Assembly (NCBI RefSeq): GCF_003544815.1
Contig: NZ_CP032100.1
Location: forward strand, 1,240,001-1,304,000
Length of the DNA: 64,000 nt
Source: Arcobacter suis CECT 7833
Lineage (GTDB): Bacteria > Campylobacterota > Campylobacteria > Campylobacterales > Arcobacteraceae
Reading direction: 5' to 3'
Of the stretch, positions 45,263 through 59,956 are shown piece by piece. Made by a program: the position numbers and the translations under genes. Each line of letters opens with the position of its first letter. Within the stretch, counting starts at the first letter, position 1. The notes beneath the pieces were generated by a model. The model made no database searches, was not told where the DNA came from, and saw nothing but the letters and a program-made list of their open reading frames with translations.

Positions 45263-45316
45263 TAGAAAATTAACAGATACATTCTATTATTCCATAAATT
45301 GATTTTAAGGAATAGA

Positions 45317-47359
45317 ATGAAAAATAAAATTATCCTATGTATTACCCTTTGCACATCTCTTTTAGCTCAAGATTCAATAGTTGAGTTAAATCAAATAAGT
45401 GTAACTGAAACTAAACAAGAAGAACAAAATCTCACCCTTGCAAATAGTATTTCAAAAAAAGATAAAAATGAAATAGACTTAGACCAAGTTATTTATCAAA
45501 AAGATTTATTAAATTCTCTTTCAGGTGTTAGAATTGAACAAACAAGTTCAGGTATTGGACATACAACAGCAATTCGTATGCCAAATGGTACAAGTGGATA
45601 TTATTTATTTATGCAAGATGGAATTGCAGTTCAATCTTCTGGATTTTTTAATCACAATGGTTTAGCTTATACAAGTTACGAAACAGCAGATAATGTTGAA
45701 GTTCTAAAAGGGGCAGGAAGTGCTTTATATGGTTCTGATGCTGTTGCTGCAACTATTAATGTAAATTCATTAGAAAAGCCTTCAAAAACTCTTGAAAGGG
45801 AAATAAAATCAAATGTTGGAAGTTTTGGTCACTATTCTGTAAAAACAGAAGTTAGTGATACAATAGATGAAAATTCTGCATATAGAGCAAATGCTAGTTA
45901 CACTTCAGAAGAAGGATATCGAGAACATACTTCTTATGATAGAATAGAAACAAATCTTAGACATGATTATAAATATAATGATGAAAATATTCTAAAAACT
46001 ATATTCAACTTTAGTAAAACAGATGCTGAACAAGCGGATGGTTTTAGTGATTATTCATATATTACAACTGCTTCAAAAGAGTCTAGTGATAAGGCTTCTT
46101 ATTACACAGCTTTAAGAAATACTGATATTAGAAGACAATTTGATTTTGCAAGACTTAGTGTTGATTGGGCGAATTATTCAAATGATAATTTAGAAGTAGT
46201 TTTAACTCCATATATTCGATATAACGAAAATAGATATGTCGCAACTTGGGAAAAAAATCTTCCTTCAAATGATAATAAAATATATACACTTGGATTACTT
46301 CAAAGAAATACTTTAGATACGAGTTATGGAGAAGTTATTTTTGGTTTTGATACAGAATATACAGATTCATCTTTAGTTTATAATCAAGATTTTAATACAA
46401 CAGCTAGTGGAAAAACTTATACTAAAGGTTCAATTTATGATTATGATGTAACATATTCAGCAATTGCTCCATATATAAATAACAAATGGGAAATAACTGA
46501 TAAGTTAGATTTTGTTGTAGGTGCTAGATATGATTATAATAAATTTGATTATACTAATAATCTTTCAACAGGAAATGATTCATCTGGGGTATATTATAGA
46601 CCAGGTGATAAAAAAGATAGTTTTACACACTTTAGTCCAAAAGCTTCATTAACTTATAAATTAGATGAATCAACAACTTTATATACAAGATATGCAAATG
46701 GATTTACAATTCCTTCTGCAACTAGATTATATTCTATGAAAGCAGGATTTAAAGAAGTTGAATTAAATCCTGAAACTACAAATACTTATGAAGTAGGAGT
46801 AAAAAAAGAGTACGAAAAAGCTTATATTGAATCTAATGTATATTTTATGAATATCAAAGACACAATCGCTAGTAAAAAAGATTCTTTTGGGGATAGTTAT
46901 TACTTAAATGCTGGAAAATCAGAACACAAAGGAGTTGAATTAACTCTATTTTCAAACTTAACGGATGATATTTCTTCAAAAGTTGCATATAGTTATAGTA
47001 AACATAATTTTGTAAATGATGATACTTTTAATGACAATGAAATGGCAGAAGCTCCAAATCATACTGGGAATTTTAGATTATTTTACAATCCATATTTTAT
47101 GAAAAAATTAACATTAATGGGTGAAATCCAATATGTTGGAGATTATTATATGAATGATGAAAATACAAAAAAATATACAGGTTATGAAATAGGAAATTTT
47201 AAAGCAACATATAACATTTCAAAAAATTTATCTTTCTTTGGGAAAATTACAAATATTGCAGATAAAGAATACGCAATAAGCGCTTCTAGCGGTTGGTCTG
47301 ATAGTTATACTCCTGGAAGTCCAAGAGCATATTATTCAGGTCTTAATTATAAATTTTAG
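45317..47359 (+). CDS. TonB-dependent outer-membrane receptor
   Basis: 680 residues from the ATG at 45317 (AAGGA upstream). Signal peptide MKNKIILCITLCTSLLAQ, then a TonB-box-like stretch near VELNQISVTETK, the plug (SLSGVRIEQTSSGIGHTTAIRMPNGTSGYYLFMQDGI, DNVEVLKGAGSALYGSDAVAATINV) and a beta-barrel ending in YYSGLNYKF with terminal phenylalanine. The architecture is that of siderophore, haem or vitamin receptors. It is first in an operon with a PepSY protein and exbB-exbD-tonB, so iron or haem is likely. No clear Fur box is seen. Confidence 0.9.
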   Translation: MKNKIILCITLCTSLLAQDSIVELNQISVTETKQEEQNLTLANSISKKDKNEIDLDQVIYQKDLLNSLSGVRIEQTSSGIGHTTAIRMPNGTSGYYLFMQDGIAVQSSGFFNHNGLAYTSYETADNVEVLKGAGSALYGSDAVAATINVNSLEKPSKTLEREIKSNVGSFGHYSVKTEVSDTIDENSAYRANASYTSEEGYREHTSYDRIETNLRHDYKYNDENILKTIFNFSKTDAEQADGFSDYSYITTASKESSDKASYYTALRNTDIRRQFDFARLSVDWANYSNDNLEVVLTPYIRYNENRYVATWEKNLPSNDNKIYTLGLLQRNTLDTSYGEVIFGFDTEYTDSSLVYNQDFNTTASGKTYTKGSIYDYDVTYSAIAPYINNKWEITDKLDFVVGARYDYNKFDYTNNLSTGNDSSGVYYRPGDKKDSFTHFSPKASLTYKLDESTTLYTRYANGFTIPSATRLYSMKAGFKEVELNPETTNTYEVGVKKEYEKAYIESNVYFMNIKDTIASKKDSFGDSYYLNAGKSEHKGVELTLFSNLTDDISSKVAYSYSKHNFVNDDTFNDNEMAEAPNHTGNFRLFYNPYFMKKLTLMGEIQYVGDYYMNDENTKKYTGYEIGNFKATYNISKNLSFFGKITNIADKEYAISASSGWSDSYTPGSPRAYYSGLNYKF

Positions 47360-47368
47360 TAGAAAATA

Positions 47369-48721
47369 ATGACAAATAGAAAACTACATAAAATTTCAGG
47401 TTTAACAGCAGGAGTTATTATTTTGATTCTTTCAATTACGGGTTTATTTTTAAACCATGATAATTGGAAGTTTTTACATAATATAACTTTACAAAATGTT
47501 CCTTTGGAGTTATATAAGTCAAATAATAAGAATTTTACTTCTTATTTGATAAATCAAAATGATGAAAATCATATAATTACAGGAGGAACAAGGGGAGTTT
47601 ATGAAAGTTTTGATCAAGGAAAAACTTTTGTAGAAACTCTTGATGAAGTTGTTTATTCTATAAAAAATGATGATACTTTTTTGTATGTTGCAACGGGCAA
47701 TGGACTTTACAAAAAAGAGTTTAAAAGTACGATTTGGAATAAATATTTATTAGATGGAAAAATTATTACATCTTTAAACATATACAAAGATAGATTATTA
47801 GCTGTCGAAGATAAAACAAAAGTAATTTTAGTTGATTTAAACAATGATTCAATTTTAGTAAATAGTGGAATAAATATTCCTAAAGAGTTATTAAATAGTG
47901 ATATTACACTTTCAAGATTTGTAAGGGATTTACACTATGGAAGAGGTCTTTTTGATGGAGATATTTCACTTTTTATAAATGATTTTGCAACTATTGTTTT
48001 GATTATTTTAGGATTTAGTGGTTTTATTTTGTGGTGGTTAATTGCAAATATCAAAAAGAGTCATAAATATAAAAACAGTATTAAATATTTTGTGAAAATA
48101 CATTCAAATATTTTTTCTATTTTAGCAATTATTCCTATAATTATTTTATTAATTACTGGAATATTTCTTGACCATGGAAAAGATTTAAATAAATTTATGA
48201 AAGAAACAATCATTTCAAAGGATTATTTACCTCCTGTTTATAGAACATTAAAAAGTGATATTTGGGGAGCTGATTTTGATGGCAAAAATTTTTATCTTGG
48301 AAATAGATATGGAGTTTTTAAAAGTGCTGATTTAACAAATTTTGAGTTAGTTTCAGAAGGTTTTGCCTATAAAATGATAAGAAAAAATGAAATCTTATAT
48401 GTTAGTGGTATGGGTTCATCAAATAGAACTTTAATAAATAATACATGGAATATTTTAGAAAATTCTCCACATATGTTTACGGATATTTATTTTGAAAATA
48501 CAAATATAAAATATCTTTCATCTCATAATAAAAATTTAATTTTGCCAATATTTGATAATATAACTTTATACACTTTTTTATATTCACTACATGACGGAAG
48601 TTTTTTTGCGCCTTGGTGGGTTTGGGTAAATGATTTTGCTTCGGTATTATTATTGATACTTTTAATAACAGGTTTGATAAGATGGTATTTAAGAAGCAAT
48701 TTAAGAAAAAGGATTAAATAA
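47369..48721 (+). CDS. PepSY-associated membrane protein with propeller-like loops
   Basis: 450 residues. Four helices (ISGLTAGVIILILSITGLFL, TIVLIILGFSGFILWWLIANI, FSILAIIPIIILLITGIFL and a C-terminal WVWVNDFASVLLLILLITGLIRW) match the PepSY_TM family often found next to TonB receptors, where members reduce iron or haem. Between them the periplasmic loops read like beta-propeller blades (ITGGTRGVYESFDQGKTFVETLDEVVY, GNGLYKKE, NRYGVFKSADLTNFELVSEG), similar to YCF48-type repeats. It ends one base before exbB. Confidence 0.72.
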   Translation: MTNRKLHKISGLTAGVIILILSITGLFLNHDNWKFLHNITLQNVPLELYKSNNKNFTSYLINQNDENHIITGGTRGVYESFDQGKTFVETLDEVVYSIKNDDTFLYVATGNGLYKKEFKSTIWNKYLLDGKIITSLNIYKDRLLAVEDKTKVILVDLNNDSILVNSGINIPKELLNSDITLSRFVRDLHYGRGLFDGDISLFINDFATIVLIILGFSGFILWWLIANIKKSHKYKNSIKYFVKIHSNIFSILAIIPIIILLITGIFLDHGKDLNKFMKETIISKDYLPPVYRTLKSDIWGADFDGKNFYLGNRYGVFKSADLTNFELVSEGFAYKMIRKNEILYVSGMGSSNRTLINNTWNILENSPHMFTDIYFENTNIKYLSSHNKNLILPIFDNITLYTFLYSLHDGSFFAPWWVWVNDFASVLLLILLITGLIRWYLRSNLRKRIK

Positions 48722-49147
48722 ATGAATATAGAGTTTTTAAAAAATCTTGTAGATTATGGAGTAATCGCTCTTTTAGTATTTATGAGTTTTATTGCATTTT
48801 GGTTTTTTATAGAAAGAATAATTTTTTATAAGAATTTAGATGTTACAAGTTTTAAAAATAAAAAATCTTTGGATATTGCTTTAACAAAACATTTAACAAT
48901 TATTGGAACTATTGCTTCAAACTCTCCATATATTGGATTATTAGGAACGGTAATAGCTATTATGCTGACTTTTATGACTATGAGTAATGGTGATATTGAT
49001 GCAGCTAAAATCATGAGTTCTTTGGCACTTGCTTTAAAAGCAACAGCTGTTGGACTTGTAGTTGCTATTGCATCTCAAATTTTTTATAATATTTTAGGCA
49101 GATACGCAGAAGTTTTAGAGAGTAAATATGAAACTGAAGAAGTATGA
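48722..49147 (+). CDS. exbB: ExbB-like proton channel subunit
   Basis: 141 residues with three membrane helices (VIALLVFMSFIAFWFFIERIIF, TIGTIASNSPYIGLLGTVIAIMLTF and ALALKATAVGLVVAIASQIFY). The core A-x-P-x-x-G-L-x-G-T-V and LALKATAVGL segments are those of the TolQ/ExbB/MotA family. Short, as in Campylobacterota ExbB2. Its ATG follows the TAA of the PepSY gene directly, and it overlaps exbD by 20 bases. Confidence 0.9.
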   Translation: MNIEFLKNLVDYGVIALLVFMSFIAFWFFIERIIFYKNLDVTSFKNKKSLDIALTKHLTIIGTIASNSPYIGLLGTVIAIMLTFMTMSNGDIDAAKIMSSLALALKATAVGLVVAIASQIFYNILGRYAEVLESKYETEEV

Positions 49148-49505
49148 TTCAATAAATGTAATACCATTTATTGATGTATTACTTGTACTTTTGGCAATTG
49201 TTTTAATGACATCAACTTTTATATCAAAAGGGATAATTCCAATAGCACTTCCACAAGCTTCAAATGCGGATACTTTAAAAGCAAATAAAGAGATAATAAT
49301 CGTAATTAAAGAAGATGGAACTTTTTATTGTAATAATCTTATAGAGGGTTTAGATAATATAAAAGAACATATTTTACAATTTCCAAAAGATACACCAATT
49401 CATGTAAATAGTGATAAAAATGCAAAATTTGAGACTTTTGTATCTGTTTTAGATATGTTAAAACAATACGAATACTCAAATATCTCAATAGTGACCAAAA
49501 AATGA
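49128..49505 (+). CDS. exbD: ExbD-like proton-motive force transducer
   Basis: 125 residues with one N-terminal helix (NVIPFIDVLLVLLAIVLMTSTFI). The critical aspartate is in FIDVLLVLLAI, the proton-conducting residue of the family. A periplasmic ExbD domain follows (KEIIIVIKEDGTFYCNNLIEG...PIHVNSDKNAKFETFVSVLDML). It works with ExbB to energise TonB. Overlaps exbB and tonB. Confidence 0.92.
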   Translation: MKLKKYDSINVIPFIDVLLVLLAIVLMTSTFISKGIIPIALPQASNADTLKANKEIIIVIKEDGTFYCNNLIEGLDNIKEHILQFPKDTPIHVNSDKNAKFETFVSVLDMLKQYEYSNISIVTKK

Positions 49506-50194
49506 GAAGATATTTTAGTTCTTTTTTTATTGCAATTTCATTTTATGCTTTTTTTGCTGTTTGCCTTTTTTATTTAATGGCAAATGATAAAGTTTTTATA
49601 AAAAAAGCAGAAGAAACAAAACTAATATCTTTAAATCATATAGAGTTAAAACCAGAAATAAAAGAAGAAAAAAAAGAGCCAGAACCTCAAACAAAAGAGA
49701 TTGTAAAAGAAGAAAAAATAGTAGAAACTCCAAAACCTATAACTCCCAAAAAAGTTGAAAAAAAAGAGATTGAAAAGAAAATCACAGAAAAAAAAGTAGT
49801 AGAAAAACAAGAGTCTGAACCTACTAAAAAAATCCAAGAACAAGTTTCCAATAAAATAGAAGAAAAAGCACCAGTAAGTGAAAATAAACTTCCACCAAAG
49901 CCTCTTCTTGATGAAAAAAAGGAGTATTTAGATAAGCATTTAGCACAAATTAGAAGCCTAATAAATAAAAATGTAAAATATCCTTTAAAAGCTAAAAAGT
50001 TATCTATTGAAGGAATTGTAACTGTTAGATTCAAAATCAATGAAGATGGAACTATAGAAAATATTACAATTATTGATGGACATAAGTTTTTACAAAGTGC
50101 AACAATAGAAGCTATCGAAGAAGCTTCTAAAGATTTTCCTAAAACAAATCAAAGTATCGAAATTCAAATACCAATAGAATATAAATTGATTTAA
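49502..50194 (+). CDS. tonB: TonB energy-transducing protein
   Basis: 230 residues. One N-terminal helix (SFFIAISFYAFFAVCLFYLMA) with the conserved serine/histidine region reduced, then a long Lys/Glu/Pro-rich spacer (about 45-140) that crosses the periplasm, and a C-terminal TonB domain (NVKYPLKAKKLSIEGIVTVRFKINEDGTIENITIIDG). The spacer is rich in EKK repeats rather than in the Pro-Glu/Pro-Lys repeats of E. coli. ATGA overlap with exbD. Last gene of the operon. Confidence 0.92.
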   Translation: MRRYFSSFFIAISFYAFFAVCLFYLMANDKVFIKKAEETKLISLNHIELKPEIKEEKKEPEPQTKEIVKEEKIVETPKPITPKKVEKKEIEKKITEKKVVEKQESEPTKKIQEQVSNKIEEKAPVSENKLPPKPLLDEKKEYLDKHLAQIRSLINKNVKYPLKAKKLSIEGIVTVRFKINEDGTIENITIIDGHKFLQSATIEAIEEASKDFPKTNQSIEIQIPIEYKLI

Positions 50195-50263: not shown

Positions 50264-51382
50264 TTGAAAATTCTACATTTTAGCGATACTCATCTAGGTT
50301 TTAATGACCTAGATATAATAAACAGTGAAAACATAAATCAAAGAGAAGCAGACTTTTATGATGCTTTTTCCCAAATAGTTGAACAAATCAAAATAATCAA
50401 ACCAGATTATATAATCCATACTGGCGATTTATTTCATAGAAGTAGTCCAAGTAATAGGGCAATCACTTTTGCTTTAGAGAAGTTTTTAGAAATTGACTCT
50501 TTGGATATTCCATGTATTTTAATAGCTGGAAATCACTCAACTCCTCGAACAAACCTCAGCTCACCAATTTTGCGTATTTTTGAGAATTTTAAAAATATCT
50601 TTGTTTCGTATAATCAAGAGTATAAAAAAATAGAGTTTGATGATGTAATCTTTCATACTTTACCTCATCTAAATGATGATACAAAAGCTTTGACTCAAAT
50701 AGAACTTTGTGAAGCAAATATAAATGAATCTAAAAAAAATATTATGATGATGCATTGTAGCGTTGGAGCTTGGTATTTGATGCAAGAGTTTGGAGAATGG
50801 GTATATCCATCTAATAAAGAGTATATCTTTTCTAAAATGAATTATGTAGCACTTGGGCATTGGCATGGATTTAGCTCTGTTGGTAAATATGAAAATGTTT
50901 ATTACAGTGGAAGTTTAGAGCGAACAAGTCTAAATGATAAACGAAATTCAAAGGGTTTTATTGTAGCAACTATAAATGAGAGTTTAACAATAGAGTATAA
51001 AGAGATAAACATAAGAGCTATACGACAAAAAGAGATAGATTGTGAGGATTACGAAACTTCTATTGAGAGTTTGGATATTAGTGATTGTATAAATGCCATT
51101 GTAGAAGTGAAACTAAAAAATCTTACGCCACTTGGTTCAATAGATATTTCAAATAAACAAATCAAAGATTTATTTCCAAACTCTATGAGTGTGAGTGTAA
51201 AAAGAGAGTTCAAAAAAAGTGATATTAACCAAAACTTACAAAACCTAGAAGCCATATCACTAGAAGAGGGGTTTTTAGAACACATAAAAGAAGAAAGTAA
51301 AGAGTTGGAGTATGAAAGACTAAAACCAAAAATTCAAGAACTATTTTCTAAGTATGAGGAGTTAAGTTATGATACTAACTAA
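50264..51382 (+). CDS. sbcD: Exonuclease subunit SbcD/Mre11-like
   Basis: Metallophosphoesterase that, with SbcC, cleaves hairpins and DNA ends. 372 residues from a TTG at 50264; the first phosphoesterase motif begins at residue 6-11 (FSDTHLGF), which rules out a later start. Further motifs: IHTGDLFHRSSP, IAGNHSTPR, MMHCSVGAW and ALGHWHGFSSV. The frame is intact. It overlaps sbcC by 14 bases, but sbcC is broken, so SbcD probably lacks its ATPase partner. Confidence 0.85.
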   Translation: MKILHFSDTHLGFNDLDIINSENINQREADFYDAFSQIVEQIKIIKPDYIIHTGDLFHRSSPSNRAITFALEKFLEIDSLDIPCILIAGNHSTPRTNLSSPILRIFENFKNIFVSYNQEYKKIEFDDVIFHTLPHLNDDTKALTQIELCEANINESKKNIMMMHCSVGAWYLMQEFGEWVYPSNKEYIFSKMNYVALGHWHGFSSVGKYENVYYSGSLERTSLNDKRNSKGFIVATINESLTIEYKEINIRAIRQKEIDCEDYETSIESLDISDCINAIVEVKLKNLTPLGSIDISNKQIKDLFPNSMSVSVKREFKKSDINQNLQNLEAISLEEGFLEHIKEESKELEYERLKPKIQELFSKYEELSYDTN

Positions 51383-53395
51383 TCTAAAACTAGAAAACTT
51401 CAAAAAATACACAAATTTTGAAATAGCCTTTGAATCAGGACTTATAGGAATCATAGGAAAAAACGGCGCTGGAAAATCAACTATTTTTGAAGCTATTTTA
51501 TTTGCCCTATATGGAGAACTAAAAAGCAAAGGTGATAAAGAAGTAGTAAGAAACTCAAATGCCTCTTCAAAAGATGCAGTTATTGTAGAACTTGATTTTG
51601 AGTTTGACACAACAGAGTATAAAATAATAAGAGAGTTTAGAGGAAAAACACTAACTGCTAATGCCAAACTATATAAAAACTTTGAGCTTATAACAACAGG
51701 AGCAAAAGAAGTAACTACAAGTATAGTAAACCTAACTAAGATGAGTAAAGATGCTTTTGTACATACACTATTTGCCAGTCAAAAGGAACTAACAAGTTTA
51801 AGTAATAGTAAACCAGAAGAGCGAAAGAAGATGATAAGAAAACTTCTAGGACTTGAAAAGATTGATTTTGTAGAAAAAGAGCTAATAGAAAAAAGCCGTG
51901 AACTAAAACGAGAAATAAGTGCTTTTGCAGAAGTATTATTAAGTGCTGAAGATATAAGTATTAAAAAAGAGCATATAGTAGAATACACAAATCAAAGTGA
52001 ACTTTTACAAAAAGATATAAGCACAAGAACAACACTTTTAGATAATACAAAAACACAAGAACAAACTATAAAACAAGAGTTAGAACTATATACAAAAACA
52101 AAAGAGCAAAAACAAAACCTACACGCAAGATGTGAACTTCTAAAAAATAGTATTAAATCTCACCAAATAAATCAAGATAAGCTCTCAAATGAACTAAATA
52201 ATCTAAAAGTTAAACAAGAAGAGCTTAGAGGATTACAAAGTGTAAAACAAGAGTATATAAGCTTACATGAGAGTATAAAAGAGCAAGAGAAACTAAAAGA
52301 GTTTCATATAAGAAAAGAGGGATTACTCCTAGAGCAAAATGAACTGAGAGATCAATACAAAAAAGTAAAAGATACAATAATCCTTTTAGAGTTTGAAACA
52401 AAAGAGCATAAAGAGCTAGTAGAAAAAGAAAAAGCCCTTGAAGTAAGAGTATAAAACAAACCCTTATACAAATACAAACAAAAGAAAAAGCATTACTTCA
52501 AGAAATAGCAGGGGAACAAAAGCTAATAAGTGATATTTCAAAAAAGATAGAAAATATAACAAATCTAGGAAGAGAGTCAAACTGTCCAACTTGTACAAGA
52601 CCTCTTTTAGATGAGTATGATAATGTAATACTATCTTTAGAACATATAGTAAAAACAACACAAAAAGAGAAAATTGATAAAGCCACTATAAACATAGAAG
52701 AGATACAAAAAAACAAAGAGCAAATAGAAGAGTCTCAAAAAGCATATATAAAAGAACACTTCGAACTATCAAAAGCTATAAATCTAATAGAGAGTAAAAA
52801 CAGAGACTTAACAATCCAAAAAGAGCATTTTGAAAAAGTGACACAAAAAGGTGTTAAAAATAAAGCAGAACTAGCAAAACTAGAAATCTACTCATACGAT
52901 AACACTATACATGAACAACTACTTTTAAAACAAAAAGAGCTAAAAACAAAATACGAATATGTACTTAGTCTTGAGACTATGCTAAAAAGAGTAGATAGTA
53001 TAAAAGAAGAACTACAAACTTCAATTCAAAACCAAGACAAATACAACCTAGAACTTCTACAAAAAGACCTAGAATTTCAAGCCATAAACTACGATGAGGT
53101 AAAACACCAAGAAAAAATAAAACAATACGATGAGGTACAAGCCAAAAAAGATAGCCTAACAGCAGTTATAAATGAACTAAAAGTAAAAATAGCCACAATC
53201 CAAGGTCAAATCAAAACAATCCAAGAGAGCCTAAATAACAACGAAATACAACTATCAAAAGTACAAACAAAAAAAGATGACCTAAACGACTACGAAAAAA
53301 TCAAAATAAGCCTAGCAGAGTTCAAAACAAAACTAAACTCAAAAGTAGCTCCAAGAATCTCAGATATAGCCTCAAATATGTACGCCCAAATCTGA
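51369..53395 (+). pseudogene. sbcC: SbcC/Rad50-like ATPase: frameshifted and truncated by the IS
   Basis: Starts normally with Walker A (GIIGKNGAGKSTIFEAILFALYG) and a coiled-coil arm. The frame ends at TAA 52452-52454. The next frame opens after TGA 52439-52441 and continues without interruption to 53395, so a single-base indel lies within about 52442-52451. The second part carries the zinc hook NCPTCTRPL and the returning coiled coil, and reaches ISDIASNMYAQI. The IS begins right there and its TGA end supplies the stop codon. The C-terminal ABC half (signature and Walker B) is missing altogether. Confidence 0.88.
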
Positions 53396-53432: not shown

Positions 53433-54711
53433 CTAAGCAGCAATTTCTTTTTGTAACAATTTTTGTTTTTCTTCAAACTCTACTGGTGATAAATTGTTAT
53501 TTGCACTATGACTTCTTTCTCTATTATAAAACACTTCTATATATTCAAATATTGATCTTTTTGCTTGTTCTTTTGTATGATAAATTTCATGATGGATTAA
53601 TTCTGTTTTTAATGTATGGAAAAAACTTTCTGCAACTGCATTATCATGACAATTCCCTTTTCGACTCATACTTTGAATTATTCCATGTCTTTTGAGTAAA
53701 TCTTTATGTTCATAAGAAGCATATTGACTTCCTCTATCTGTATGCCAAATTAGTCCTTTTTCTGGATTTCTTGAAATAAGAGCCATCTTTAAAGCATCAT
53801 TTACAAGTGAAACTTTCATTGTTTCATCCATACTCCAACCAACTATTTTTCTTGAATATAAATCAATAACTGTTGCAAGATACAACCATCCTTCACTTGT
53901 TGGAATATAACGCGTATTAATAAAAAGATATATTTAATATCTTTTTATTAATACTTCTATCGCCTACATATTTTTCATCAACTTTTGAAGCATAGAAATC
54001 TCTATTTAAAATATTGGGAGCTATTGGTAAATTATGATTTGAATCTGTTGTCATAACTTTAAATCTTCGTTTCATTTTTACAAACAATCCTAATTGTTTT
54101 AGAATATTTCTAATTCGTCTTCTTGAAACTATTACACCATATCTTTCAAGAAGTTTATCTTTTATCCTTCTTGTACCATATGTTTGTCTTGATTGAAGAA
54201 ATATTATTTCAATTAGTTCATTAAGTTTCTCATCAACTTTTTGAATTACACAACCATTTTTAACCCAATTGTAATAGCTACTTTTATCAACTTTAAAAAC
54301 TTTACACATAAGTTTTATATTGAAACTCTTTCTATGCTCTTTTATCCAAGCATACTTTGATAGAGTTTCAAATGCTGCGTATGCTGTTGCCTTTTTTAGA
54401 ATATCTCTTTCTTGTTTGAGTAATTTATTCTCTGCTCGTAGCTGTTTTAGTTCAGCCACTAATTCTTGTTGTGAGGATTTAGATTGATTTTTAGTTTCAT
54501 CAATAGGAGTTGTTATATTATTCTCTTTTTTATAAACTTTAATCCAATTATAAATTGTTTTATCATTTATTCCAAGATCTTTTCTTGCTAACGCTACGTT
54601 CTATGCTGCAATTTGCATTGCTGACTTTTTACTATTCAAAATTAAGTGAACAGTCTCATCTCTAAACTCTTTAGTATATTTACTATTTCTCATTTTTTCT
54701 ACTTCTTTCAT
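53433..54711 (-). pseudogene. IS3-family transposase (OrfA-OrfB fusion), broken
   Basis: OrfA (from the ATG at 54711) and OrfB share one frame, without the usual -1 frameshift site. OrfA has the HTH region (IYNWIKVYK, LKQLRAENKLLKQERDILKK) and is interrupted by TAG at 54601-54603. OrfB has the HTH_21 segment (RQTYGTRRIKDKLLERYGV) and the DDE core split by a 43-bp insertion at 53916-53958: VGD before it, [23 protein letters not shown] after it. Later residues include [10 protein letters not shown] and [17 protein letters not shown], the second D and E. Autonomous transposition should be abolished. Confidence 0.88.
53914..53954. repeat. Perfect 18-bp palindrome inserted in the transposase
   Basis: GTATTAATAAAAAGATAT (53914-53931), loop ATTTA, then the exact reverse complement (53937-53954). 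It belongs to a 43-bp insertion (about 53916-53958) between the codons for VGD and TRYIPT. Removing 43 bases restores the frame. Confidence 0.85.
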
Positions 54712-55040: not shown

Positions 55041-55679
55041 ATGAATATATATGCTTACATAGTTCCAGTTGATGATGGTGCTGCACCAAATCCTTATGGT
55101 GGAGTTTGTTCTTTGGCTATTTGTAAACCAAACCTTAGGAAGATTGCAAAAATAGGTGATTGGATTGTTGGATTAAGCCCTGAATTTAAACTAATCTACA
55201 CTATGAAAATCACAACTGTTAAAACTATGAAAGAATATGATATTTATACAAAAGAGAATTTAAGTACAAAAATCCCAGATAAAACTAGCAAAAATATAAA
55301 AAAACAAATGGGCGATAGTGTTTATGATTTTTCACAAGATAATGTGATACTTCGTCCAAGTGTTTATAGTCGTTGTACAAAAGAGATGGATTTAGCTGGG
55401 AAAAATGTTTTACTTTCAACTCATTTTTATTATTTTGGAAATAAACCAAAAGTTTTGCCAAAGGAGTTTGAAAATATTGTAACTCTTGAAGTTGATTTTT
55501 TAGAACTGAATCTTGATTTACAAACTATATTTTTTGATTGGTTAGAAAAACAAAAATTTGAAAAAAACAAAATATATTCAAATCCGCATATTATAGGAAT
55601 TATAAGTCCAAATAACAAAGAAAAACAGATGAGTTGTTGTATAAGAAAAAAAATAGAAAAAACTTTTTACAAAGCTTAG
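55041..55679 (+). CDS. Nmad2-like domain protein (nucleotide modification-associated)
   Basis: 212 residues. The sequence AYIVPVDDGAAPNPYGGVCSLAICKPNLRKIAKIGDWIVGLSP is close to the N-terminal pattern of the Nmad2 family, with later MKITTVKTMKEYDIYT, GDSVYDF and VLLSTHFYYFGNKPKVLPKEF. Nmad domains were predicted by comparative genomics to act in DNA or nucleotide modification systems, often near phage or restriction genes. No partner gene is visible here and no catalytic role is established. No signal peptide. It lies beside the IS scar. Confidence 0.65.
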   Translation: MNIYAYIVPVDDGAAPNPYGGVCSLAICKPNLRKIAKIGDWIVGLSPEFKLIYTMKITTVKTMKEYDIYTKENLSTKIPDKTSKNIKKQMGDSVYDFSQDNVILRPSVYSRCTKEMDLAGKNVLLSTHFYYFGNKPKVLPKEFENIVTLEVDFLELNLDLQTIFFDWLEKQKFEKNKIYSNPHIIGIISPNNKEKQMSCCIRKKIEKTFYKA

Positions 55680-55755: not shown

Positions 55756-57597
55756 ATGAAATTATTCATTTTATTATTTATTATCTTTTATACCTCGCTT
55801 TTTTCAAGTAATTTAGATTATTTATTAGAAGAATATGACTCAACTAGTGAAAAATCATTACAAACTGTAGATGAAAAACTTGGACATGTTTATATCTATT
55901 CTCAAAAAGATATAAAATTAATGCAATATAATAAATTAAATGATATTTTAAAAGAACTTCCACTATTAAATCTAAATAAAAACCGATATGGTTTATCTTC
56001 TCTTTCTTTATCTGGAACAAAAACTACTGTTAGTGGATTTTTTAGAGTTTTTATTAATGACCATGAAGTAAGTTCACTTTATAACCAAAGTGCAGCTGTA
56101 TCTTGGGGCGATTTGCCTTTAGATTTTATTGATTATGTTGAAATTTATTATGGAGAAAGTTCTTTTTCTTTTGGAAGTGAAACAGGAATTTATTTTATTA
56201 GACTTTATACTAAAAAAGGTGTAAAAGAAAATGGAAGTGAAATAAATCTAAAAGGTTCTTCAAAAGGTTCTTCAAGTGAAAGTTTTACAAATTCAAGAAC
56301 TTTTGAAAATGGTTGGACATATCTATTTTATGGAAGCAATCAAAAAGAAAAAGAGACAAGAAAATATAAAGATGATAAATTATTAAATGATGGAACAAGA
56401 AGATATTTATATTTAGATATTAGCAATGAAAATACAGATATAAATATGGCTTACACAGATTTGAAAAAAGATACTTATATGGGAATGTCTTATGATGCAG
56501 TTCCTGATGATGGAGAGATAATAACAAAAGATTTTTTTGTTGATGTTACAAAATATTTTTTAGATGATAAATCATTAAAAACAAATGTTTCATTTGATGT
56601 TAATAATCTTGATAATGTTGAAACAAATCAAGAAGGAATGTCATTTTTGCCAGTTCGTGGAGTTAAACATTTTGATAAAGATTTAAAATTTACAAAAGTA
56701 AAAGCTAGTGTAACAAAATCTTTTGAACATAAAAATAATAACTTTTTAGCAGGATTTAGTACATCTGAAAAAAAATATACCCAAGGAAATAAAATATCTA
56801 ATGATTTTGACAAAGAAACCATTACTTCTTTGATGTTTCAAGATGATTATAAATTAACAGATGATTTAGTATTAATTGCAAATACAAAATTTGATAAATA
56901 CAAAAGAGCTGGATTTTTAGAAGATATTTCAGAAGAACTTTATCGAGTAGGGGCTATTTATACTCCTTTTGAGAGTTTTGGAATAAAAAGTTTTTATACA
57001 AAAACGTACTTACCACCATCTTTTTTTGATGTTGATTATGCTTTTTTAGATAAAAATTTAGATGTACAAAAATATAAAATTTATACTATTGAAGCAGTTT
57101 ACACAACTGAAAAATCAAAAACAAGCGTTACTCACCATGATGTTGATATAGAAGATTTTATATATTTAGAACCAAATATTGGTTTTATGAATATTGCTCA
57201 TACGATAAAAACATCAGGATACGTATATAGTTATGAATATCTTTTAAAAGAATCAAATAAAATCCAAATAAATTACTACACAACAACTTTAAGTGAAACT
57301 TTGAATAACTCAAGTAAAGGTGGTTATATCAAATATATGGGAGCGTATGATAAATTCGAGTATTTTACTTCGGTTTTATATAGAAATTCTTACAGTTATT
57401 ATGATTTACATGTGGATAATTCTTTTGATTTATCATTGGGTGCTTCGTATAATATAAATAAAAATTTAAAAGTTAGCCTAAAAGGTGAGAATCTTCTTAA
57501 TAATTCTACTGAATCTTTATATGCTGATTCAGGAAAAGCTTTTGCTTTTGCTGATTATGAAAGAAGTGCTACTCTTTCATTGAAATGGATGTTTTAA
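55756..57597 (+). CDS. TonB-dependent receptor-like outer-membrane protein
   Basis: 613 residues from the ATG at 55756 with TTAGG upstream. Signal peptide MKLFILLFIIFYTSLFSS, then a plug-like region (VYIYSQKDIKLMQYNKLNDILKELPLL, LPLDFIDYVEIYYGESSFSFGSETGIYFIRLYTKKG) and a barrel ending in SATLSLKWMF with terminal phenylalanine. The plug resembles that of TonB receptors but lacks an obvious TonB box. It is the first gene of a three-gene unit with a small periplasmic protein and a GGDEF/EAL protein, so it may act as a signalling receptor. Confidence 0.78.
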   Translation: MKLFILLFIIFYTSLFSSNLDYLLEEYDSTSEKSLQTVDEKLGHVYIYSQKDIKLMQYNKLNDILKELPLLNLNKNRYGLSSLSLSGTKTTVSGFFRVFINDHEVSSLYNQSAAVSWGDLPLDFIDYVEIYYGESSFSFGSETGIYFIRLYTKKGVKENGSEINLKGSSKGSSSESFTNSRTFENGWTYLFYGSNQKEKETRKYKDDKLLNDGTRRYLYLDISNENTDINMAYTDLKKDTYMGMSYDAVPDDGEIITKDFFVDVTKYFLDDKSLKTNVSFDVNNLDNVETNQEGMSFLPVRGVKHFDKDLKFTKVKASVTKSFEHKNNNFLAGFSTSEKKYTQGNKISNDFDKETITSLMFQDDYKLTDDLVLIANTKFDKYKRAGFLEDISEELYRVGAIYTPFESFGIKSFYTKTYLPPSFFDVDYAFLDKNLDVQKYKIYTIEAVYTTEKSKTSVTHHDVDIEDFIYLEPNIGFMNIAHTIKTSGYVYSYEYLLKESNKIQINYYTTTLSETLNNSSKGGYIKYMGAYDKFEYFTSVLYRNSYSYYDLHVDNSFDLSLGASYNINKNLKVSLKGENLLNNSTESLYADSGKAFAFADYERSATLSLKWMF

Positions 57598-58055
57598 TGA
57601 AATCTATAATATTTTTAATAACACTTATTTCATTTTTAAATGCAGAACAATATACTTTTTTAGTTAATAAATATGATAAAGAATTAGAACTTGAAGCAAA
57701 AATAATCTCAAATATTGCAACAGCATCAATAAAAAGTGAAATAAAACTTTATATTCCTGAAATTTCAAATACGGAAAAAGAGGTTTATTCAAAATTTTTT
57801 ACATTAGTCGATAATTGTGAAAACGCAAATTTTGTTTTTATAAAAAAGAGTATAGATACAAATTCTTTATGTAAAAATAATACAGATAAAATCTTTTTTA
57901 CTAATAATTATGAAAAATTATTAAATGACAAAAGATATTTAGGTGCATTTTTTTGGAATAAAAGTAGACCAAATATTACTTTTATAAAAGCTAGATTAGA
58001 AAAACAAAAAATAGAATTACCAGATGATTATGATAAATTCGTGGAAGATTTTTAA
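57597..58055 (+). CDS. Small periplasmic protein, possibly YfiR-like
   Basis: 152 residues from the ATG at 57597, which shares a base with the upstream stop. Signal peptide MKSIIFLITLISFLNAEQ. The mature part has CENANFVFIKK and KIFFTNNYEKLLNDKRYLGAFFWNKSRPNITFIKARLEKQKIEL, which by layout recalls YfiR (DUF4154) periplasmic regulators that restrain the YfiN diguanylate cyclase. C74 and C92 could form a disulfide. The similarity is faint and by eye; position between a receptor and a membrane GGDEF/EAL protein is the stronger argument. Confidence 0.5.
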   Translation: MKSIIFLITLISFLNAEQYTFLVNKYDKELELEAKIISNIATASIKSEIKLYIPEISNTEKEVYSKFFTLVDNCENANFVFIKKSIDTNSLCKNNTDKIFFTNNYEKLLNDKRYLGAFFWNKSRPNITFIKARLEKQKIELPDDYDKFVEDF

Positions 58056-59956
58056 TGAGAAAAATTTTATTTATTAAAAATCCTATTTATTTGATTTTTT
58101 TGGCTCTTTTTATATCTTTTGTTTTTTCATTATTACTTTATGGAACAATTAAATTAGAAAAAAACACAACTGAAAAAATGATTGAAATATCAACTTTTGA
58201 TGTTATCTCAATATCAAATAATAATGCTTCTTACATAGAAAAATCTTTACAATCAAGCTTAAAAAGTTATCCAAAAGAGTTAGAAACAAATTCTACTTTA
58301 CGAACTCAAATTGAAGAAAATTTGAGTTTATTATTAACTTCTAATATAAAATACGCTTATTTAATTTACAAAGACCAACGAGGAATTTTTAGATTTTTAG
58401 CAGATGGTGCAAAAGAGAATGAAAAGGCTTTTTTTAATCAAAAATTTGACATAGATAATTCAAGATGGTTAGAAATTTTTGAAACAAAAAAACCACTTAT
58501 TATTGAACATGGTTTTTCACAACAATTATCTATTACATATTTAGTTCCAATTTTGAAAAACAATGAAGTTGAACTTATTTTGGCAGTGGATTTTTCAATT
58601 AAAAAAATTGAAGATATAAATAAAATACTCAATTGGATGCAATATTCAATTATTGCTATCATTTTTATCGTTGTAGTTTTTTTGATTCTTTTATTGATTC
58701 AAACTTTTAAATATATTGCTATTAAAAAAAGCGCTTTTACTGATAAATTAACAGGAGTTTATAATCGAAATTATTTACAAGAATCAGAAAATTTTATAAA
58801 TTTAAATGATTATATATTAGCAACTTTAGATATTGATCATTTTAAAGTTGTAAATGATACTTATGGACATTATGTTGGAGATAAAATCCTAAGTCAGACT
58901 GCTCAAATAATTACTTCAACGGTTAGAATAAAAGAAGATATTGTTATTAGATATGGTGGAGAAGAGTTTGTAATTTTGGCAAAAATTAATCGAAATGACA
59001 ATATAAGTGCTTTAAATGTAATAGAAAGAATTTTTAGAAATATCCAAAATACTGAGTTTTATATCAATAATCAAGAGTTTATAAATGTAACTGTATCTAT
59101 TGGTGTAAATCTTGTACCTTATAAATCAAGAAGTTTTTCTGATGCTTTTAGATTAGCTGATCTTGCTTTATATAATGCAAAAAATAAAGGTAGAAATAAT
59201 ATTGAAATTTATGATGAACGAGAAAACAAATACAATGATTTATCTATTTCAATAAATGAAATAAAAGATGCAATAGAAAAAAAACAGGTTATTTGCTATT
59301 ATCAAGAAATTATAGATACTGAAACTTTAGAAATTTCTCATTATGAAGCATTACTTAGAATTATAGATAAAAATGGAAACATAATTTTGCCAGAAAAAAT
59401 TTTACCAATTATAAAAGGTACTTTTATTCTACGAAATATCACAAAAACTATTTTAAAAATTTGTTATAAAAAATTACAAGAACAAAAAGATATAAAAATC
59501 AATATAAATTTAAATCCAAAAGATATTATTGATAGTTCAATTCTTCTAATTTTAAAGAATTTTGCTTTAGAAGAAAATATTTCAAATAGATTAGGTTTAG
59601 AAATTGTTGAAAGCGAAGATTTAATAAATTCTAAAGATGCAAAAGATAATTTATTGATGTTAAAAAAGTTAGGTTATAAAATATTTATTGATGATTTTGG
59701 AAGTGGATATTCAAATTTTATTTATTTAACAGAAATAAAAACCGACTATATAAAAATTGATGGAAGCATTATAAGTAAAATTCTAGATGATAAAATATCT
59801 TTTCTTTTAGTAAAAAGTATTGTTGAATTTGCAAAAGAGGCTGATATAAAAGTTATAGCTGAATATGTAAGTAGCAAAGAGATTTTTGAAATTGTAAAAA
59901 TACTTGGGATTGATTATGCTCAAGGATATTATTTTTCTATTCCTGAAGAAATTTAA
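58055..59956 (+). CDS. Membrane-bound GGDEF-EAL c-di-GMP protein
   Basis: 633 residues. Two helices (PIYLIFLALFISFVFSLLLYG and YSIIAIIFIVVVFLILLLIQTF) enclose a periplasmic sensor of about 165 residues. The GGDEF domain carries R299-Y-G-G-E-E-F305, so synthesis may be possible. The RxxD inhibition site is not canonical (IKED). The EAL domain has E431-A-L, IDDFGSGYSNF, DYIKIDGS, IKVIAEYV and AQGYYFS, so hydrolysis is likely. Its start overlaps the stop of the periplasmic protein gene by one base. The balance of the two activities is not predictable. Confidence 0.9.
   Translation: MRKILFIKNPIYLIFLALFISFVFSLLLYGTIKLEKNTTEKMIEISTFDVISISNNNASYIEKSLQSSLKSYPKELETNSTLRTQIEENLSLLLTSNIKYAYLIYKDQRGIFRFLADGAKENEKAFFNQKFDIDNSRWLEIFETKKPLIIEHGFSQQLSITYLVPILKNNEVELILAVDFSIKKIEDINKILNWMQYSIIAIIFIVVVFLILLLIQTFKYIAIKKSAFTDKLTGVYNRNYLQESENFINLNDYILATLDIDHFKVVNDTYGHYVGDKILSQTAQIITSTVRIKEDIVIRYGGEEFVILAKINRNDNISALNVIERIFRNIQNTEFYINNQEFINVTVSIGVNLVPYKSRSFSDAFRLADLALYNAKNKGRNNIEIYDERENKYNDLSISINEIKDAIEKKQVICYYQEIIDTETLEISHYEALLRIIDKNGNIILPEKILPIIKGTFILRNITKTILKICYKKLQEQKDIKININLNPKDIIDSSILLILKNFALEENISNRLGLEIVESEDLINSKDAKDNLLMLKKLGYKIFIDDFGSGYSNFIYLTEIKTDYIKIDGSIISKILDDKISFLLVKSIVEFAKEADIKVIAEYVSSKEIFEIVKILGIDYAQGYYFSIPEEI

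Follow-up and report, generated by a model that had tools for sequence, protein, structure and literature searches.

A TonB-type receptor, a small YfiR-like exported protein and a GGDEF-EAL enzyme encoded as a conserved three-gene module in Arcobacter suis: a candidate outer-membrane-to-c-di-GMP relay

A 64,000-nucleotide stretch of the Arcobacter suis CECT 7833 genome (contig NZ_CP032100.1, positions 1,240,001 to 1,304,000; the whole stretch is called the window here) carries three genes in tandem on the + strand at 55756-59956. They encode a TonB-dependent-receptor-like outer-membrane protein, a small exported protein that resembles YfiR, and a sensor of the inner membrane whose GGDEF and EAL domains are those of cyclic diguanylate (c-di-GMP) enzymes. 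Homologs of these genes recur side by side across the Campylobacterota, and we propose that they encode a relay like YfiBNR, in which a TonB-type receptor would stand in the place of YfiB and a signal from outside would be carried across both membranes. We assign this reading, which is drawn by analogy with YfiBNR, a probability of about 0.6.

Loci were collected with the small gene alone as bait, and 82 neighborhoods were fetched. Because the flanks played no part in fetching them, the adjacency of receptor and sensor genes is not a selection effect. The receptor gene directly adjoins the small gene in 80 of the 82 neighborhoods, and a sensor or kinase gene lies directly 3' of it in 79; the usual overlaps are 13 or 4 bases, followed by 4 or 1. 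The genes flanking the module vary between loci. At one locus (L147), the sensor gene comes first, followed by the receptor gene and then the small gene; the set has been kept there despite the changed order. A profile search found the small gene in 55 of 298 genomes sampled across the Campylobacterota, representing 19 of 58 genera. Among 104 Arcobacteraceae genomes, 42 contain the small gene and 38 contain the sensor domain, every one of these together with the small gene, and the sensor domain was found in none of the 62 genomes that lack it. The receptor subfamily is likewise limited to the small-gene genomes among these 104, save for fragments in three genomes. Pairwise distance matrices of the three proteins are correlated with r of 0.92 to 0.94. 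In the receptor tree, the f10 sequences of loci L112 to L114 and L116 nest inside the Arcobacteraceae clade, suggesting that the module moved between families as one block; the small protein had no plasmid occurrence in PLSDB. The adjacency of the three genes is not chance. The first-pass annotation of the window had read the genes as one unit and had proposed a neighborhood search, which we ran in the Campylobacterota and which found the homologs adjacent in other genomes at the frequencies given above.

The part of the module that varies is its output. The 82 loci comprise 52 with a GGDEF-EAL protein, 18 with GGDEF alone, and 8 in which the output is a histidine kinase. The sensor domain belongs to the window sensor family in five of these kinases (E values down to 6e-54), while the other three (L044, L045, and L048) have other sensors. 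Mapped on a quick tree of the receptors, the output label changes about 11 times, of which 9 to 10 changes are the minimum forced by well-supported branches. Since output types vary and change repeatedly on this tree, the receptor, the small protein, and usually the sensor domain form a constant core around which the readout is swapped. The earlier proposal of c-di-GMP as the output thus applies to the window gene and to most loci, which encode GGDEF or EAL proteins, and does not extend to the eight loci with a histidine kinase instead. At five kinase-type modules (L137, L142, L143, L145, and L146), the gene next after the kinase encodes an EAL-domain protein of 640 to 674 residues; kinase-type modules too may finish in c-di-GMP breakdown, via a phosphorelay.

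The small protein begins with a hydrophobic export signal and contains two cysteines, C74 and C92, each conserved in at least 90% of the family. Searches of this protein and 41 relatives against Pfam and NCBIfam returned only chance-level matches (e.g., Recombinase, 0.053), and phmmer and profile searches against PDB sequences found no relative. The AlphaFold model (predicted local distance difference test score [pLDDT] of 88.7) aligns end to end with the YfiR structures 4xjy and 4yn7 (Z of about 10, root mean square deviation of 3.2, 124 to 125 of 147 to 148 residues); the corresponding Foldseek E values of 0.1 to 0.3 are weak taken alone. Profile ranking among open reading frames (ORFs) of 120 to 220 residues pointed the same way in both directions. 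The small-protein profile placed DUF4154 proteins above neighboring ORFs (area under the curve [AUC] of 0.90, P = 3e-10), and the YfiR profile placed the small proteins above neighboring ORFs (AUC of 0.88, P = 8e-25); these P values ignore the kinship of the sequences, and the AUC is the dependable figure. A first hhalign comparison of the small protein with YfiR (94%, E value of 1e-7) was set aside as inflated by the signal peptides. With the signal peptides cut, the score was 25.3, whereas 150 column shuffles averaged 11.3 and reached at most 18.3. Conservation is strongest at F118, K122, R124, P125, and I127, on a C-terminal hairpin that, in the model and as far as the alignment goes, would correspond to the partner-binding region of YfiR. 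The two cysteine pairs of YfiR (Cys71-Cys110 and Cys145-Cys152 in Pseudomonas aeruginosa) are not present, only C74 and C92 being conserved. We consider the small protein very probably a diverged YfiR relative, though it fails the DUF4154 model. A faint YfiR-like layout had been noticed at first pass together with a suggestion to compare the protein with DUF4154; the predicted fold and the profile ranking bear the likeness out, and a formal match to that family (PF13689) is absent.

Canonical YfiR genes occupy the same slot elsewhere. For this comparison, Campylobacterota DUF4154 genes scoring over the cutoff were taken, and some of the receptors beside them were recognized by sequence, not by profile. 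A DUF4154 gene lies between a receptor gene and a GGDEF or GGDEF-EAL gene at L170, L176, L179, L183, and L187, and at other Campylobacterota DUF4154 loci such genes adjoin. The receptors of these loci have weak or no match to the window receptor family. One locus (L171) combines a DUF4154 gene, a receptor, and a kinase with a sensor of the window sensor family (3e-21). Plasmid records from outside the Campylobacterota hold a TonB-dependent receptor, a YfiR family protein, and an EAL protein in Pseudoalteromonas sp. Bsw20308 and a receptor, a YfiR family protein, and an ATP-binding protein in Sphingobium indicum B90A; those of Sphingobium TomTYG65 and Pseudoalteromonas CuT4-3 are similar in part. 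The Bsw20308 and B90A loci share with the module the gene order and the component types, including the exchange of a c-di-GMP enzyme for a kinase-like protein, but their small protein is annotated as YfiR family, unlike that of the module. Because canonical YfiR genes adjoin receptor genes and GGDEF/EAL or kinase genes, the arrangement is wider than the small-protein family of the window, and the module in the window represents a divergent branch of this broader arrangement. The idea of a distinct signaling system is thus supported, with the refinement that the arrangement is not confined to the window family. At a further locus (L162), a single protein of 514 residues has a DUF4154 (YfiR) domain at its N terminus and a GGDEF domain at its C terminus.

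The third protein matches the Pfam families GGDEF (3e-36) and EAL (2e-57), and the motifs RYGGEEF, YEALLR, DDFGSGYS, and DYIKID can be read in it intact; GGEEF or GGDEF is found in 67 of 71 members of the enzyme family. The gene is thus predicted to encode a GGDEF-EAL protein with intact catalytic motifs. The AlphaFold model of its sensor part (pLDDT of 90.3) has its best structural matches among the sensor domains of WalK, KinD, DctB, and Tlp3 (Z of 12 to 14), and 11 of 65 sensor members have weak dCache_1 matches. The modeled sensor has a Cache/PDC fold. Pfam found neither a HAMP domain nor a YfiN-type sensor in the third protein, and Escherichia coli DgcN reached only an E value of 0.87 against the sensor profile, which makes the sensor unlike that of YfiN by sequence.

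The receptor contains a plug domain (PF07715, 37 bits against a cutoff of 23.9) and has a partial NCBIfam match to the BtuB-type TIGR01779. For the 22-strand beta barrel expected of such a receptor, there is no Pfam barrel match, and partial NCBIfam matches include a C-terminal one; residues 38 to 161 align with the colicin I receptor structure 2hdf. The segment ahead of the plug is more conserved than the barrel (L24, 99%; S34, 96%; T37, 99%; G43, 100%). At first pass the receptor had been described as lacking a clear TonB box, which is true across the family: no TonB-box-like pentapeptide was found in the preplug segment of the 62 module receptors that have a strict LLxxY motif, and in the remaining 16 the LLxxY motif is visible by eye. 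The same genome contains 12 plug-domain receptors and three TonB proteins in total. Among the 11 other receptors, 5 have a TonB-box-like pentapeptide (e.g., ISVTE or ITVTS) and none has the LLxxY motif, although the TonB-box pattern used was loose and missed some other receptors as well. Some 5.5 kb upstream of the module, the window also contains a conventional TonB system (45299-50194, + strand) against which the module receptor can be compared. It consists of a receptor gene with the TonB-box-like ISVTE, followed by genes for a membrane protein and for ExbB-, ExbD-, and TonB-like proteins in a row.

Together, we infer an outer-membrane-to-c-di-GMP relay that could work as follows. The receptor would bind a ligand at the cell surface, and its tail and plug, which face the periplasm, would alter the amount of free small protein there; the conserved tail is the likely contact. 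Free small protein would bind the Cache-like domain and control the cytoplasmic output, most likely by repressing it in the way that YfiR represses YfiN. We propose c-di-GMP as the readout here because the output protein combines GGDEF and EAL domains whose motifs are intact; relatives would instead read out through GGDEF alone or a histidine kinase. There is a precedent for the bridging role in that YfiR is reported to bind YfiB at the outer membrane as well as YfiN at the inner membrane (PMC4655355). A wider proposal, which we put forward tentatively and think rather doubtful, is that these loci belong to a broad and as yet unnamed class of modules in which the N-terminal tail of the receptor replaces the TonB box and directly captures or releases a YfiR-like protein that drives interchangeable inner-membrane outputs, be they synthesis of c-di-GMP, its turnover, or a kinase, so that the receptor would serve as a signaling device for which TonB may be dispensable.

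Several observations weigh against the relay. PF13689 is absent from the small protein, from 41 members of its family, and from the whole genome, and hhalign without signal peptides relates the small protein to YfiR at only an E value of 0.0012 and a probability of 19%. Single-domain and two-domain solute-binding proteins match the small-protein model at a Z equal to that of YfiR, a likeness that has been remarked for YfiR too (PMC4655355). The high correlation of distances is expected of any co-inherited operon. Finally, two loci (L056 and L068) lack a receptor but retain the small gene and the sensor, and two others (L046 and L125) retain the receptor and small gene with no adjacent sensor. 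Because solute-binding proteins of the same fold score an equal Z, a ligand-carrying role of the small protein is possible, and this leads to the main rival explanation, in which the small protein, as a solute-binding protein with one lobe, takes a compound imported by the receptor to the Cache domain, with signaling following transport. The equal-scoring structures include a substrate-binding protein of Rhodothermus that has a single domain, as well as the C-terminal lobe of tryptophan- and phenylalanine-type binding proteins. Import is the normal job of TonB-type receptors, and there are GGDEF-EAL proteins that work with a periplasmic binding protein (NspS-MbaA). However, a single lobe lacks the usual cleft between lobes, conservation peaks on the hairpin that, as far as the alignment goes, is the counterpart of the YfiR partner-binding region, and the receptor has no recognizable TonB box, and we regard such a shuttle as unlikely.

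The relay might also run with the opposite sign, the same three-part contact being used by the small protein to switch the sensor on while the receptor supplies or withholds it. The sign of regulation is unreadable from sequence, and the behavior of YfiN need not transfer to a sensor family that is unlike YfiN and has no HAMP domain; every YfiR that has been studied is nevertheless described as a repressor of its cyclase (PMC4655355), which makes activation quite improbable. Least of all do we favor mere cotranscription, by which the receptor and the c-di-GMP enzyme would share an operon and be functionally unrelated. Unrelated genes are sometimes grouped in bacterial operons, but obligate co-occurrence across many families with differing flanks, the repeated swapping of outputs with receptor and small protein retained, and canonical YfiR in the same gene order in other phyla render it very improbable. 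Two further candidates were rejected, a simple transport operon, as the unit is without a transport gene, and a transducer of the FecA-FecR type, as there is no STN domain or FecR.

The proposed relay has a close analog in YfiBNR of P. aeruginosa, or YfiR-DgcN-YfiB of E. coli, which also co-encodes an outer-membrane part, a YfiR-fold periplasmic protein, and an inner-membrane c-di-GMP enzyme. The outer-membrane part there is the OmpA-like lipoprotein YfiB, and here it is a TonB-type receptor. No ORF for an OmpA-like peptidoglycan-binding lipoprotein is present in the unit, the neighboring genes being the receptor gene upstream and ilvB downstream; the same analogy, with this same difference, had been drawn at first pass. 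The DUF4154 model does not capture the small protein of the module, which has a single cysteine pair where YfiR has two. A YfiN-type cyclase consists of a periplasmic PAS/CHASE domain, HAMP, and GGDEF, whereas the enzyme encoded in the window has a Cache-like sensor of another kind, lacks HAMP, and carries an additional EAL domain. As the family model, the YfiB lipoprotein, and the YfiN-type sensor with HAMP are all missing, the module resembles YfiBNR in layout yet is not a member of it.

Other systems are alike in single features. In NspS-MbaA of Vibrio cholerae, a periplasmic binding-protein-like partner regulates a membrane GGDEF-EAL protein, but its operon has no outer-membrane receptor, and NspS is a complete binding protein of two lobes; NspS reportedly presents its ligand to MbaA. 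FecA-FecR-FecI transducers use a TonB-type receptor to pass a signal through the outer membrane to a partner in the inner membrane, but the module receptor has no STN domain (plug only in Pfam), and the unit has no FecR or sigma factor. The single-domain substrate-binding protein of Rhodothermus marinus (6k1x and 8wgl) has the same single alpha/beta domain fold (Z of about 10) and is reported near chemoreceptor genes, not in a receptor/c-di-GMP operon (PMC10805632).

The coordinates of the module are given in Table 1. Both junctions read TAATG, so that each pair of genes overlaps by 1 base. An alternative start for the small gene lies at 57585, where an in-frame ATG would lengthen the protein to 156 residues and the overlap with the receptor gene to 13 bases. 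The conserved MxxLM at this extended start was not used to choose between the starts because the receptor gene, whose end is itself conserved, overlaps these codons. The gene boundaries, the 1-base overlaps, and the three gene types of the first-pass annotation (a receptor-like protein, an exported protein of about 150 residues with two cysteines, and a membrane GGDEF/EAL protein) all agree with the sequence, the ORF translations, and the domain searches. Elsewhere, the small gene at L060 and L061 and the receptor gene at L042 and L073 are broken by single in-frame stops in otherwise intact modules, suggesting decay, sequence errors, or on/off switching. At L118, tandem receptor genes (628 and 620 residues) precede one small gene and one sensor gene, possibly a module with two inputs.

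Table 1. Positions of the module genes and their parts in the window
Feature	Position	Strand	Details
TonB-dependent-receptor-like outer-membrane protein	55756..57597	+	613 residues; plug at about residues 42-142, then presumed barrel; ATG to TAA
Preplug N-terminal segment of receptor, residues 19-41	55810..55878	+	Motif LLxxY...S..T..E at the expected place of a TonB box
Small exported YfiR-like protein	57597..58055	+	152 residues; ATG to TAA
Inner-membrane sensor with GGDEF and EAL	58055..59956	+	633 residues; ATG to stop; PF00990 at residues 227-382, PF00563 at residues 401-629
N-terminal part of sensor, residues 1-223	58055..58723	+	Cache-like periplasmic domain between two predicted transmembrane helices

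Upstream of the module, the two parts of an IS3-type transposase, matching integrase core and HTH_21, lie at 53433-54459 on the - strand directly after an sbcD-like gene and an sbcC-like gene in pieces (51369-52454 and 52838-53395); insertion of the transposase may have interrupted sbcC. Between the transposase and the module, at 55041-55679 on the + strand, lies a gene for an Nmad2 protein (nucleotide modification associated domain 2; PF18753, 149 bits). Nmad genes are often tied to phage or DNA modification islands, and this gene is unrelated to the module. Downstream of the module, an ilvB-ilvN pair begins, as read from the translations.

To our knowledge, few routes lead from an event at the Gram-negative cell surface to a change in c-di-GMP. 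The combination of a TonB-type receptor, a YfiR-like protein, and a c-di-GMP enzyme as one system is undescribed in the open-licence literature searched, which is weak evidence of novelty as subscription papers and preprints fell outside that scope; no published description of loci of the Bsw20308 and B90A type was found in the same literature. The genome paper of Arcobacter butzleri counts 25 GGDEF/EAL proteins, and the portion of its text that was searched makes no mention of TonB-dependent proteins. If the relay is real, members of a receptor family usually classed with nutrient uptake would be the sensing end of a modular relay across the Campylobacterota, and other Proteobacteria would have a counterpart that uses canonical YfiR. 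Small periplasmic genes without a family model would gain a concrete function, and YfiBNR would be one case of a wider scheme. It would also become testable whether TonB-type receptors signal by passing on a periplasmic protein, not via TonB or FecR.

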